A stretch of 64,000 nt of DNA from Cloacibacillus porcorum. Lineage in GTDB: Bacteria > Synergistota > Synergistia > Synergistales > Synergistaceae. Shown here in pieces: positions 20,856 to 25,981 of this stretch (its first letter is position 1; each line of letters opens with the position of its first letter). Below the pieces are notes generated by a model. The model was given only the letters and a program-made list of their open reading frames with translations, was not told the DNA's origin and did no database searches. The stretch spans positions 558,001-622,000 of the forward strand of contig NZ_CP016757.1 of NCBI RefSeq assembly GCF_001701045.1, read 5' to 3'. The translations under genes were made by a program, and so were the position numbers.

Positions 20856-20995
20856 TTCGGGTAGGGAATGAATAGATAAATGGCGGTTTACCAAAGATTT
20901 TGGCGCCCTCTCCTGAACAGCATCCCGAAAATCGGACATCCAAATAAAGCCCCTGGATTATAATAAAACTAAATACATATAAAGGGGGCTCTTCT

Positions 20996-21439
20996 ATGCG
21001 TAAACGTAAAACAGAAGAAAGAATAAAAGCAATTGAGATGCACAAACAGGGAATTCCACGAAGGCGGATTGCTGAAGAACTTGGTGTTAGTCCTGATTCT
21101 GTTAAAACATGGATATCTTTATATAAGAGCGGACAGAAGGACTTACTGGATGATACAAGGAAAAAAAGAACCTACAGCAAGGCTGTAAAACTTGAAGCTG
21201 TTTCGGCTCATTTAGAAGAGGGACGTACTATGGTAGATGTTACCTCGTCTTTTAACATTTCAAGTCCCTCTCTTTTAAGACGATGGTGTAAGGAATTTCT
21301 CGAACAAGGGGATATTTCTAGTTCAAAACGTGACTGTCCAGATAAGAAATTGGAAGTTACAAATAGCATAGAAAAGATCAAAGAGCTGGAAATGCAGGTT
21401 GACGTATTAAAAAAAGCCTTAGAGCTGCAAAGGTGGTGA
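20996..21439 (+). CDS. IS3-family OrfA (helix-turn-helix), copy A
   Basis: 147 residues; the start ATG follows AAGGGGG. Two HTH segments (RRRIAEELGVSPDSVKTWIS and MVDVTSSFNISSPSLLRRW) and a C-terminal leucine-zipper-like coil (IEKIKELEMQVDVLKKALEL) are typical of OrfA. It binds the IS ends and pairs with OrfB. A run of seven A followed by G (21409-21416) allows -1 frameshifting into orfB to make the OrfAB transposase. It differs from copy B at two residues (Lys vs Arg in ERIKAIEM; Val vs Ile in SPDSVKTW). Confidence 0.92.
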   Translation: MRKRKTEERIKAIEMHKQGIPRRRIAEELGVSPDSVKTWISLYKSGQKDLLDDTRKKRTYSKAVKLEAVSAHLEEGRTMVDVTSSFNISSPSLLRRWCKEFLEQGDISSSKRDCPDKKLEVTNSIEKIKELEMQVDVLKKALELQRW

Positions 21440-22305
21440 TAGAAAGAAATATTAAATACAGAATCATTTTTGAATTTTCAACAAAACATTCTGTCTGTGG
21501 AATGTGTAGATTTTTGTCCGTATCACGCTCTGCATACTACAGTTGGCTAAAGCGGCGTGGAATGGAAGATAAAGACGGTCCTCTCATAGAAGCAATAAGA
21601 ACGGGACAGGATATCAACAAAAACACTTATGGGTACAGGCGAATGACTCTGTGGCTCAACAACTTCATTGGCATTCATGTAAACAATAAGAGGGTAAGGC
21701 GTGTTATGAAAAAAGCGGGACTTCAAGCGGAAATAAGAAAAAAGAAAAAGTTTAAAGTGATGTCAGGAAATATCCACAGCTATGAGAATATCCTGAACAG
21801 AGAATTTCGTTCCGACAGACCAAACCAGAAACTGGTTACTGATATCACATATATACGAACAAAAAAGGGTAATATATTCCTCTCCATGATAAAAGATCTC
21901 TTTGATAATTCCATACAGGGATATCAAATCAGTCGTAATAATAATATTAAGTTAGTAACCGATACATTGAAGAAAGCATTTGAAAACAATAATAAGGTGG
22001 TCGCTGATGGACCAATCCTCCACAGCGACCAGGGGTTTCAATATACAAGCCATGCATATTTCAACCTGACACAAAGATACGGACTAAAGGTCTCGATGTC
22101 AAGGAAAGGAAATTGTTTGGATAATGCATGTGCAGAAAACTTCTTTAGTCACATTAAATCAGAGCTCGTCAACAGAGTAAAATGGGAGAACTATGAGGAG
22201 GCTAAAGATGCCATAGACGAATATATAAGGTATTATAATAACGACAGGATACAGATAAAATTGAAAAAGGCTCCGATGCAATATCGAAGTCTCTTTATTG
22301 AATAA
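21433..22305 (+). CDS. IS3-family transposase OrfB (DDE), copy A
   Basis: 290 residues in the -1 frame relative to orfA, overlapping it by 7 bases; the frame is open upstream through the A7 slippery run. An HTH_21 region (NTYGYRRMTLWLNN, RVRRVMKKAGL) is followed by the rve catalytic core with Asp137, Asp199 and Glu235; the 35-residue spacing between the last two is the DD(35)E signature. No stop or frame damage is seen, so the element looks competent. The encoded protein is identical to that of copy B. Confidence 0.95.
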   Translation: MVIERNIKYRIIFEFSTKHSVCGMCRFLSVSRSAYYSWLKRRGMEDKDGPLIEAIRTGQDINKNTYGYRRMTLWLNNFIGIHVNNKRVRRVMKKAGLQAEIRKKKKFKVMSGNIHSYENILNREFRSDRPNQKLVTDITYIRTKKGNIFLSMIKDLFDNSIQGYQISRNNNIKLVTDTLKKAFENNNKVVADGPILHSDQGFQYTSHAYFNLTQRYGLKVSMSRKGNCLDNACAENFFSHIKSELVNRVKWENYEEAKDAIDEYIRYYNNDRIQIKLKKAPMQYRSLFIE

Positions 22306-22362
22306 ATTTTTGATACCCTTGGGAGCTTTTATAGCGTTGTCCGGTTTGCGGGACTCTGTTCA

Positions 22363-22520: not shown

Positions 22521-22577
22521 TGAACAGAGTCCCGAAAACCGCACAGCGCTATAAAAGCTCCCAAGGGTATCAAAAAT

Positions 22578-23450
22578 TTATTCAATAAAGAGACTTCGAT
22601 ATTGCATCGGAGCCTTTTTCAATTTTATCTGTATCCTGTCGTTATTATAATACCTTATATATTCGTCTATAGCATCTTTAGCCTCCTCGTAGTTCTCCCA
22701 TTTTACTCGGTTGACGAGTTCTGATTTAATGTGACTAAAGAAGTTTTCTGCACAGGCATTATCCAAACAATTTCCTTTCCTTGACATCGAGACCTTGAGT
22801 CCGTATCTTTGTGTCAGGTTGAAATATGCATGGCTTGTATATTGAAACCCCTGGTCGCTGTGGAGGATTGGTCCATCAGCGACCACCTTATTATTGTTTT
22901 CAAATGCTTTCTTCAATGTATCGGTTACTAACTTAATATTATTATTACGACTGATTTGATATCCCTGTATGGAATTATCAAAGAGATCTTTTATCATGGA
23001 GAGGAATATATTACCCTTTTTTGTTCGTATATATGTGATATCAGTAACCAGTTTCTGGTTTGGTCTGTCGGAACGAAATTCTCTGTTCAGGATATTCTCA
23101 TAGCTGTGGATATTTCCTGACATCACTTTAAACTTTTTCTTTTTTCTTATTTCCGCTTGAAGTCCCGCTTTTTTCATAACACGCCTTACCCTCTTATTGT
23201 TTACATGAATGCCAATGAAGTTGTTGAGCCACAGAGTCATTCGCCTGTACCCATAAGTGTTTTTGTTGATATCCTGTCCCGTTCTTATTGCTTCTATGAG
23301 AGGACCGTCTTTATCTTCCATTCCACGCCGCTTTAGCCAACTGTAGTATGCAGAGCGTGATACGGACAAAAATCTACACATTCCACAGACAGAATGTTTT
23401 GTTGAAAATTCAAAAATGATTCTGTATTTAATATTTCTTTCTATCACCAC
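22578..23450 (-). CDS. IS3-family transposase OrfB (DDE), copy B
   Basis: 290 residues, identical in protein sequence to OrfB of copy A (Asp137, Asp199, Glu235). It is expressed by -1 frameshift from orfA at the A7 run in the overlap. The inward-facing 3' ends of the two orfB genes lie 272 bases apart across the central palindromic repeat. Confidence 0.95.
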   Translation of the reverse strand: MVIERNIKYRIIFEFSTKHSVCGMCRFLSVSRSAYYSWLKRRGMEDKDGPLIEAIRTGQDINKNTYGYRRMTLWLNNFIGIHVNNKRVRRVMKKAGLQAEIRKKKKFKVMSGNIHSYENILNREFRSDRPNQKLVTDITYIRTKKGNIFLSMIKDLFDNSIQGYQISRNNNIKLVTDTLKKAFENNNKVVADGPILHSDQGFQYTSHAYFNLTQRYGLKVSMSRKGNCLDNACAENFFSHIKSELVNRVKWENYEEAKDAIDEYIRYYNNDRIQIKLKKAPMQYRSLFIE

Positions 23451-23887
23451 CTTTGCAGCTCTAAGGCTTTTTTTAATACGTCAACCTGCATTTCCAGCTC
23501 TTTGATCTTTTCTATGCTATTTGTAACTTCCAATTTCTTATCTGGACAGTCACGTTTTGAACTAGAAATATCCCCTTGTTCGAGAAATTCCTTACACCAT
23601 CGTCTTAAAAGAGAGGGACTTGAAATGTTAAAAGACGAGGTAACATCTACCATAGTACGTCCCTCTTCTAAATGAGCCGAAACAGCTTCAAGTTTTACAG
23701 CCTTGCTGTAGGTTCTTTTTTTCCTTGTATCATCCAGTAAGTCCTTCTGTCCGCTCTTATATAAAGATATCCATGTTTTAATAGAATCAGGACTAACACC
23801 AAGTTCTTCAGCAATCCGCCTTCGTGGAATTCCCTGTTTGTGCATCTCAATTGCTCTTATTCTTTCTTCCGTTTTACGTTTACGCAT
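23444..23887 (-). CDS. IS3-family OrfA (helix-turn-helix), copy B
   Basis: 147 residues, two substitutions from copy A. It has the same HTH pair, coiled coil and slippery A7 site near its 3' end. The base before the start region also differs (GATC for GCTC), so the copies have begun to diverge. Confidence 0.92.
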   Translation of the reverse strand: MRKRKTEERIRAIEMHKQGIPRRRIAEELGVSPDSIKTWISLYKSGQKDLLDDTRKKRTYSKAVKLEAVSAHLEEGRTMVDVTSSFNISSPSLLRRWCKEFLEQGDISSSKRDCPDKKLEVTNSIEKIKELEMQVDVLKKALELQRW

Positions 23888-24042
23888 AGAAGATCCCCCT
23901 TTATATGTATTTAGTTTTATTATAATCCAGGGGCTTTATTTGGCTGTCCGATTTTCGGGATGCTGTTCAGAGAGGGAGGCTATAAGGGCAAAGTCAAAAG
24001 ATAAATCGCTATTTACCTCTTTCCCTCCCGATTTACGCCGAT

Positions 24043-25824
24043 TTATTTTACCTTTTTCCTTCTCATCAACCATAGCGGAGCCAGTGCCAGCAGCGCCAGT
24101 GCGCCTGTGCCCGCTGAGCAGCCGTTTCCGCCGCCGCCGTGGCGGGGGGTACTGGTGACGGTCACTGCTGCCTTTGCCTGGTGCTTTCCGTCCGCCGCCG
24201 TTACGGTGATTGTGGCGGTACCGGCGGCGATGGCCTTTACGCTGCCTTCGCTGTCGACCGCGGCGATCTTTTCATTGTCGCTGCTCCAGGTGAGCCCCTG
24301 GTCTGTGGCGTCTGAGGGCGATACCGTGGCGGTGAATTTGCCGCTTCCTCCCACCTTGAGCTCCATCTTCTCTGGGGCGATGGTGATCCCTGTTACCGGT
24401 ACGTCGCTGACCGTGATGTTAAAGGTGAAGGAGAGCGGAGTATCCTTGCCGGATGGGGCGAAGTTGTTTTTGAAGTCCGTCGGGTCGATGTCGGCCGAGA
24501 CGACGATGGAGGCCGTTCCTTCCTTGGTGCCGGTGAGCGTTATCGTGCCGTTTTCGTTGTTGACGTCGGCGGATATTATCTCAGTGTCAGACGGGGTTAC
24601 GGTGATCTTCTTCACGAAACCGCCGAATATATCGGGGCTTCCTGGCAGGGCGGAGAGGGTGATCTCCGTCGTCCCGCCGGTCATGACGGTGCGGTTAACA
24701 AGTTTGACTCTGAGCGCGACGGTGCTCTTGTCTATCCCGGTCTGGTCGATACTGACGGCTTCAGCGCCATCGTTACCAGTTCCTACACCTTTTTCGAGAT
24801 CTTTATTGACCGTCTCCGTTTTCAGCCAGCCGCAGTTTGATACATCTCCCTCGTTGCTTCCCGCGATGCCGCCGGTGTATTCGCCGCCGGAGACATCGCC
24901 GCCGTTGGCGCAGTCTGATATCTTGCTGTCCCCGTTGTTGAGCCCCGCGATGCCGCCGGTCTTTATCTTTCCTTTGCCGGAGGCGTCTTTGCCTGAGACC
25001 GTACCGAAGTTTACGCAGTTTGATATTGTGCAGTCATAGCTCTTGTAATTGGTTGCCCCTGCGATGCCGCCGATATATCCATCCTTTGCGTATTCACCCT
25101 GCACTTCGCCGTAGTTTGCACAGTTTAATATGACGCGGCGGCTCATTCCCGCGATGCCGCCGGCGTGTTGGGGGTTGGTGGCTTGGCTGCTGAGGTTTGA
25201 GGCGCCGCTGTAGTTGACGCAGTTTGATATGGCTCCTGAGTTGAGTCCAGTGATGCCGCCCACGTAGATAATGGAAGTATTTTTAGCGGCGTTGACTCTT
25301 ACGGTGCCTCTGTTGACGCAGTCTTCGACTGTGCCGTCGTCGTGGACTTGTCCCACGATACCGCCCGCATAGCAGGTCTTCGAGGCCTGTACGTCTATAT
25401 CGCCGCTGACGGTGAGCCCCCTTATCGTGGCGTATCCAATAGCGCCGAAGAATCCTATAGAAGATGTGGCCGTTGCTGGTTCTGTTATTGTGTAGCCACT
25501 GACGGTATGGCCCGCGCCGTCAAAGACGCCGACGTAGCGGAGTCTGTTGCCGATGGGCGTCCATTCAGTCGGTGTCCCGTCGGGCAGCGAGAGGTCGATG
25601 TCGGCGGTGAGGCGCGCGTCGCCGGAGGCGCCTAAGTTTACGCCGTCGCGGAAGACGATGAGATCCGCCGAGGTGGCGATGAGATAAACACCGTCTGCGT
25701 CTTGTGTCAGCGCGCAGGCGCAATGGGGCGAAACGAGGATGAAGAGAGTTAAAAGAGAGAGGACAAGCGGGAGTAAGAGTTTATTATGAACCTTAATGAA
25801 CTTAAACGGGGGGGGGTGTATCAA
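24043..25824 (-). CDS. GLUG/Ig-like surface protein with Synergist-CTERM tail
   Basis: 593 residues if read from TTG 25824, an unlikely start without a ribosome site. The order is: a signal peptide (LLLPLVLSLLTLFILVSPHCACA); a region with at least five GLUG-type units, each GGI-G plus NCVN-G (GGIVGQVHDDG, GGITGLNSG, GGIAGMSRR, GGIAGATNY, GGIAGLNNG, GGIAGSNEG); a linker with two beta-rich segments; a BIG2 Ig-like domain (VTGITIAPEKMELKVGGSGK to AAVTVTS); and a tail GGGGNGCSAGTGALALLALA plus basic RRKK. That tail matches the Synergist-CTERM sorting signal. The protein should be exported and processed at the envelope. The strong RBS and ATG upstream are one base out of frame; see 25808-25884. 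Confidence 0.85.
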   Translation of the reverse strand: MIHPPPFKFIKVHNKLLLPLVLSLLTLFILVSPHCACALTQDADGVYLIATSADLIVFRDGVNLGASGDARLTADIDLSLPDGTPTEWTPIGNRLRYVGVFDGAGHTVSGYTITEPATATSSIGFFGAIGYATIRGLTVSGDIDVQASKTCYAGGIVGQVHDDGTVEDCVNRGTVRVNAAKNTSIIYVGGITGLNSGAISNCVNYSGASNLSSQATNPQHAGGIAGMSRRVILNCANYGEVQGEYAKDGYIGGIAGATNYKSYDCTISNCVNFGTVSGKDASGKGKIKTGGIAGLNNGDSKISDCANGGDVSGGEYTGGIAGSNEGDVSNCGWLKTETVNKDLEKGVGTGNDGAEAVSIDQTGIDKSTVALRVKLVNRTVMTGGTTEITLSALPGSPDIFGGFVKKITVTPSDTEIISADVNNENGTITLTGTKEGTASIVVSADIDPTDFKNNFAPSGKDTPLSFTFNITVSDVPVTGITIAPEKMELKVGGSGKFTATVSPSDATDQGLTWSSDNEKIAAVDSEGSVKAIAAGTATITVTAADGKHQAKAAVTVTSTPRHGGGGNGCSAGTGALALLALAPLWLMRRKKVK

Positions 25825-25884
25825 AGTTAAATGTTATTGGGCGCAAATTACTGCTGTGCGGCGACATGGTGTATCGCCCTCCTT
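25808..25884 (-). promoter_or_regulatory. RBS, out-of-frame ATG and C9 tract of the surface protein
   Basis: On the minus strand AAGGAGGG (25884-25877) is followed 9 bases later by ATG (25867-25865). This frame reads MSPHSSNLRPITFNFDTPPP then V and TAA, because a run of nine C (25816-25808) throws it off. With eight (or eleven) C it would continue PPPFKFIKVHNK into the signal peptide of the surface protein. Confidence 0.72.
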
Positions 25885-25951: not shown

Positions 25952-25981
25952 ACAATACAATTTACACTCTCTATTTGTCAA
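25952..25981 (-). promoter_or_regulatory. Probable promoter of the Synergist-CTERM protein
   Basis: Minus-strand TTGACA (25981-25976), an 18-bp spacer and TATTGT (25957-25952), about 85 bases before the out-of-frame ATG. The 230 bases from here to the gntP ribosome site hold no gene. Confidence 0.55.

Follow-up and report, generated by a model that had tools for sequence, protein, structure and literature searches.

A C9 tract between start codon and signal peptide of a Synergist-CTERM protein in Cloacibacillus porcorum: a probable translational switch within a family of tract-bearing genes

Introduction

The window analysed here is a 64-kb stretch of the Cloacibacillus porcorum genome (G000) and carries, on the minus strand, a gene for a predicted surface protein whose signal peptide is out of frame with the ATG that has a ribosome binding site. 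Nine consecutive C lie between the two. The locus raises the question of whether the gene is decayed, miscounted in the assembly, translated from another start, or switched by changes in the length of the tract. The first-pass annotation, made from the letters of the window, read the arrangement as slipped-strand phase variation. This reading was supported mostly by evidence from outside the window: a family of eleven genes in the same genome, similar genes in other genera, and a mixture of reading frames among them.

Results

Anatomy of the window gene

The features of the gene are collected in Table 1. The Shine-Dalgarno sequence (SD) and ATG named in the first-pass annotation were both found in the sequence, and its count of nine C is exact in the assembled sequence, which is one assembly. 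The predicted promoter elements, TTGACA and TATTGT, are spaced 18 nt apart and score 10/12.

Table 1. Features of the window gene. Positions are those of the window; the end of the signal peptide was placed by eye.
Feature	Position	Strand	Remarks
-35 element TTGACA	25976..25981	-	in 4 of 5 aligned paralogues
-10 element TATTGT	25952..25957	-	in 3 of 5 aligned paralogues
Shine-Dalgarno AAGGAGGG	25877..25884	-	AAGGAG invariant in five aligned leaders
ATG, predicted true start	25865..25867	-	ATGTCG invariant in five aligned leaders
17-codon leader MSPHSSNLRPITFNFDT, upstream of tract	25817..25867	-	40-55 nt counterparts in ten other CTERM genes of the same genome
TTG, sole in-frame start at C9, without SD	25822..25824	-	absent from G020 leaders
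C9 homopolymer, predicted slippage switch	25808..25816	-	
TAA closing the ATG frame at C9 (OFF)	25802..25804	-	
Signal peptide FKFIKVHNKLLLPLVLSLLTLFILVSPHCACA	25711..25806	-	hydrophobic core; no start codon before or within
Surface-protein body and stop codon	24043..25710	-	profile matches
GLUG	about 25300-25374	-	above Pfam cut-off
Big_2	24163-24399	-	above Pfam cut-off
Synergist_CTERM (TIGR04564)	24052-24132	-	30.8 bits against a cut-off of 22.5

The product of the ATG frame was recomputed for tract lengths from 6 to 12. Full-length proteins resulted at C8 (607 aa) and C11 (608 aa), and all other lengths gave 20-39 aa, the frame running for 21 codons at C9 and 39 at C10. Hence the proposals that the frame closes after 21 codons at a TAA, and that one C fewer or two more would fuse it to the protein behind, proved correct, as did the assignment of this copy to the OFF state by frame. 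The repeat lies between the start codon and the body, and a change of one unit shifts the frame of the body, which is the arrangement of a translational SSR. The only in-frame start at C9 is, as had been stated, a TTG without a ribosome site (TTG 25824); weak expression may arise from it at C9, and this codon is not conserved across the family.

At C9 the 593-aa frame of the surface protein is unbroken, with its GLUG, Big_2 and CTERM parts complete. The earlier description as a Synergist-CTERM protein with GLUG and Ig-like domains agrees with the profile scores, since the C-terminal 27-residue domain exceeds the curated cut-off of TIGR04564. The protein is predicted to be located at the surface, as judged purely from motifs (signal peptide, GLUG, Big_2 and Synergist_CTERM). 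Directly downstream of the gene are two 1450-nt IS3-type copies (20913-22362 and 22521-23970 of the window), 99% identical, inverted and 158 nt apart; such a pair may cause the intervening sequence to be inverted or deleted.

Distribution of C and G runs

Taken by itself the C9 tract is unremarkable, as shuffling the bases gave an expectation of 0.67 such tracts per window. The window is very poor in runs of at least C7: the tract of this gene is the only one present, against about 11 matching positions in shuffles. The whole genome (3.585 Mb) contains 18 C/G runs of at least 9 and 7 of exactly 8, and nine of these 25 occur no more than 80 nt into a Synergist-CTERM gene, against an expectation of 0.026 (Poisson P about 1e-20). 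The 80-nt limit was picked after the pattern had been seen; the enrichment is robust to this choice, as no reasonable alternative abolishes it. Chance base composition was rejected as the source of the C9 because of this concentration in CTERM leaders. About 13 of the 18 runs of at least 9 lie in leader, signal-peptide, promoter or similar switch-like settings, and inspection of the five at 1420.4, 2314.8, 2334.3, 2585.0 and 3186.0 kb gave no explanation.

A family of tract genes in the same genome

The genome has 46 matches to Synergist-CTERM, 41 of them over the cut-off. A tract of C7-C10 or G9 in the 5' leader was found in 11 of the 46, and no leader tract was found in the remaining matches. 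All 11 genes follow a common plan of SD, start codon (ATG, but TTG in two), an open leader of 40-55 nt (13-18 codons), tract and signal peptide, with no usable start between the tract and the hydrophobic core of the signal peptide. In the five aligned GLUG-type leaders a TTGACA region lies upstream in most. The bodies of the scanned tract genes vary, being GLUG plus Big_2, DUF6273 plus Big_2, cadherin-like, or large Big_2.

States were assigned by reading frame as assembled. The genes at 1191.3 kb (C7, 838 aa) and 1531.5 kb (C9, 633 aa) are ON and full-length, and the copy at 46.7 kb (C9) is ON by frame and truncated downstream (249 aa). The genes at 489.1 kb (C9), 525.1 kb (C8), 583.8 kb (C9, the window gene), 1194.2 kb (C8), 1429.3 kb (C9), 1896.8 kb (C7, interrupted), 2838.8 kb (G9) and 3251.1 kb (C10) are OFF. 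In most of the OFF genes the frame stays open for some 490 to more than 1900 codons. The paralogues have diverged to dS values of 0.1-0.7 and the frames behind most tracts are still open; dN/dS values, mostly 0.6-0.8 within a range of 0.29-1.26, are as expected of surface proteins that evolve fast and are also compatible with some relaxation of constraint.

At the interrupted tract (L152:761, 1896.8 kb) the leader is followed by CCCCCCCACATAAA, and the paralogue L133 reads CCCCCCCATAAA; the interrupted tract may be locked OFF. An IS end (TTTACCCCCTATATGTACAGGATTAGTTTAGCAGTGCA) is located directly upstream of several tracts (L182:1887 at 1632.9 kb, L230, L233, L176 and L173), and a tract gene at L182 apparently lost its SD and start to it.

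Tract genes in other genera

The same plan was also seen in genes of two to three other genera. In G020, which belongs to another genus of the same family, the leader of ten genes reads MLEEKTESYDN, MFMEKEICNDA or nearly so, and a tract of C9, C10 or C12 separates it from the signal peptide. Among the copies with identical tract-adjacent bases three read C10 (OFF) and two read C12 (ON); two more read C9T. Tract length therefore varies between near-identical sequences, the comparison being one of paralogues rather than strains, and it was in this form that the comparison of tracts across related genomes, suggested in the first-pass annotation, was carried out. The C10 and C12 copies are the most direct evidence for a change of length with unchanged flanks.

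Five pairs of G020 genes aligned with about 92-100% identity from about -200 to +100 around the tract. In the same pairs identity drops to chance upstream and is mostly 55-95% farther downstream. The stretch running from the promoter through the signal peptide, about 300 nt, forms a cassette that is nearly identical despite unrelated flanks and diverged bodies. Duplication together with gene conversion is the likely cause of this uniformity.

In G014 two GLUG genes carry C9 and C11 at the 5' end, both OFF, and in G021 one GLUG gene with a CTERM tail at the C-terminus carries G11 at the 5' end and is OFF. G001, of the same genus as G000, has a C12 leader akin to the type at 489.1 and 3251.1 kb with only a short frame behind it. 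A search of genome contigs for a second strain gave distant Big_2 proteins from other bacteria only, and a search of viral contigs gave no match.

Other homopolymer tracts

Several further tracts were observed outside the CTERM family. In G000 an autotransporter (PF03797, 1002 aa, L228:1649, 544.4 kb) has G9 inside its signal peptide and is OFF as written; in G020 the signal peptide of a TonB-dependent receptor contains C10. Small ORFs of 61-64 aa at L179:2050-2460 (3157.4 kb of G000) and at L204, L208 and L212 (G014) consist of SD-ATG, 43-50 nt and C9-C11, share the C-terminus MQYxxxxDD(G/S), and in L179 and L204 are followed by an OmpH/Skp-like gene. They are possibly a family of phase-variable leader peptides. 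Repeated elements in G014 (L205, L206, L213, L214) and G001 (L216, L220) have SD-ATG, 22-31 nt and G9-G11, often with CGCTCCT or similar, and frames of 14-53 aa. In G035, from another family of the order, runs of G10-G14 are found inside long frames or opening them (L244-L252), splitting some, in the style of Campylobacter.

Discussion

The C9 tract of the window gene is very probably the switch of a contingency locus, within a repertoire of about eleven switchable Synergist-CTERM genes. Gain or loss of C through slipped-strand mispairing during replication would bring the signal peptide and the surface protein behind it into register with the conserved SD and ATG, or out of it. A complete pre-protein would result from C8 or C11, to be exported and taken by its Synergist-CTERM tail to the sorting route; at C9 or C10 translation would end after the short leader frame. 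If the roughly eleven genes of G000 switch independently, cells could display different combinations of surface proteins. We infer replication slippage as the cause, together with switching within a clone and its rate; the variation may serve to alter antigens, adhesins or phage receptors.

Nine C is at the short end for fast slippage, and tracts in the family that are C7, C8 or interrupted may be slow or locked. Proteins with MutS domains are present in the genome; these would lower the rate of slippage, so that switching rates may be moderate. Counted against switching were the excess of OFF over ON genes in the 11-gene family and the raised dN/dS, which possibly reflects some loss of constraint. 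Neither chance nor simple decay nor a single error of assembly is sufficient as an explanation, because the plan recurs in eleven genes and in other genera, the frames are mixed, and tract lengths differ beside identical bases.

The alternative to which we give some weight, while considering it unlikely, is that the protein is made at C9 anyway, either from TTG 25824 or because the ribosome or the RNA polymerase slips on the C run, so that the tract only tunes expression. At C9 the TTG reads in frame through a complete signal peptide, some paralogues offer an ATG or GTG immediately ahead of their tract, and multi-start phase variation is known in other systems. These near-tract starts, however, are all without an SD and are missing from the G020 leaders, and each gene has a strong SD-ATG or SD-TTG further upstream, at the distance of one leader. 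The programmed form of transcriptional slippage is known mainly from A/T runs (PMC3711429), which was counted against slippage on a run of C.

It is quite improbable that the tract is real but invariant, with a true length of C8 (ON) and an error in the base count. Homopolymer counts are error-prone and the count of nine comes from a single assembly, but miscounting cannot put poly-C at the same place in eleven genes and in several more from independently assembled genera, and all loci could be ON only if errors had occurred simultaneously in many of them. We consider it more improbable still that the gene is a decaying pseudogene with a frameshift in a chance C run close to IS elements. Two IS copies do lie directly downstream, the family includes broken members (the copy at 46.7 kb, and that at 1632.9 kb truncated by an IS end), and dN/dS among the paralogues is raised. 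Against this, the window gene keeps an unbroken frame with complete domains, tract position and promoter are conserved among the paralogues, and ON copies exist. The long intact frames led to the rejection of simple pseudogene decay.

Beyond the switch of the single gene, we lean towards the presence in the Synergistaceae of a multi-locus phase-variable set, in which a ~300-nt cassette homogenised by recombination stands before dispersed and diversifying Synergist-CTERM bodies, giving many surface combinations per strain in an Opa-like manner. In such a repertoire a single class of sorted surface proteins would be governed by about eleven frame switches acting independently, and this in a phylum where phase variation has received little study. 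If this is true, a single genome, proteome or antibody captures one of many possible surfaces of these bacteria, and automatic annotation misplaces the starts of tract genes or labels them pseudogenes.

In the library searched, no paper joined Cloacibacillus with phase variation or Synergistaceae with slipped-strand mispairing, and on CTERM sorting proteases the search returned only the MYXO-CTERM/myxosortase and GlyGly-CTERM analogues. The mechanism is a classic one; the phylum (Synergistota), the protein class and the multi-locus scale appear to be new. Inactivation of inlA by poly-A and other 5' tracts (PMC2831843) resembles the present case in that a tract near the start codon leads by frameshift to a peptide of few residues, but the tracts of that survey are mostly poly-A/T, whereas here a dedicated poly-C/G leader occurs in a paralogue family. 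The promoter poly-C of Neisseria Opc (PMC3960869) differs in type, the window gene being translational. The Opc tract resembles those of two other, paralogous surface genes of G000, with G10 (L138:3118, 3085.9 kb) and G9 (L233:3215, 3033.7 kb) between TTGAC(A/T) and TAAAAT, which are like promoter-type phase variation; at L233 an IS element lies between promoter and gene.

Helicobacter (H. canadensis, PMC2823697) and Campylobacter (PMC8355987, PMC6321876) likewise have many homopolymers at 5' coding ends or in promoters and a mixture of ON and OFF genes per genome. They belong to another phylum and have other protein classes, and length variation was seen there at the level of reads, here in assembled sequence only; membership in families of that type was rejected and the analogy kept. 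Close parallels are also seen with Neisseria Opa, in which CTCTT repeats occur in the leader-peptide region (PMC3960869). Both are unlinked families of surface proteins, each gene with its own 5' repeat before or within the signal sequence and with ON and OFF set by frame, and both combine a common 5' region with varied bodies. The present repeats, however, are poly-C or poly-G in a separate leader of 13-18 codons ahead of the signal peptide, and the bodies are GLUG/Ig-like with a Synergist-CTERM tail in place of the outer-membrane barrels of Opa. With a mono-C repeat instead of the CTCTT pentamer, and GLUG and Ig-like domains instead of a barrel, membership in the Opa type is ruled out, and Opa is kept as an analogy.
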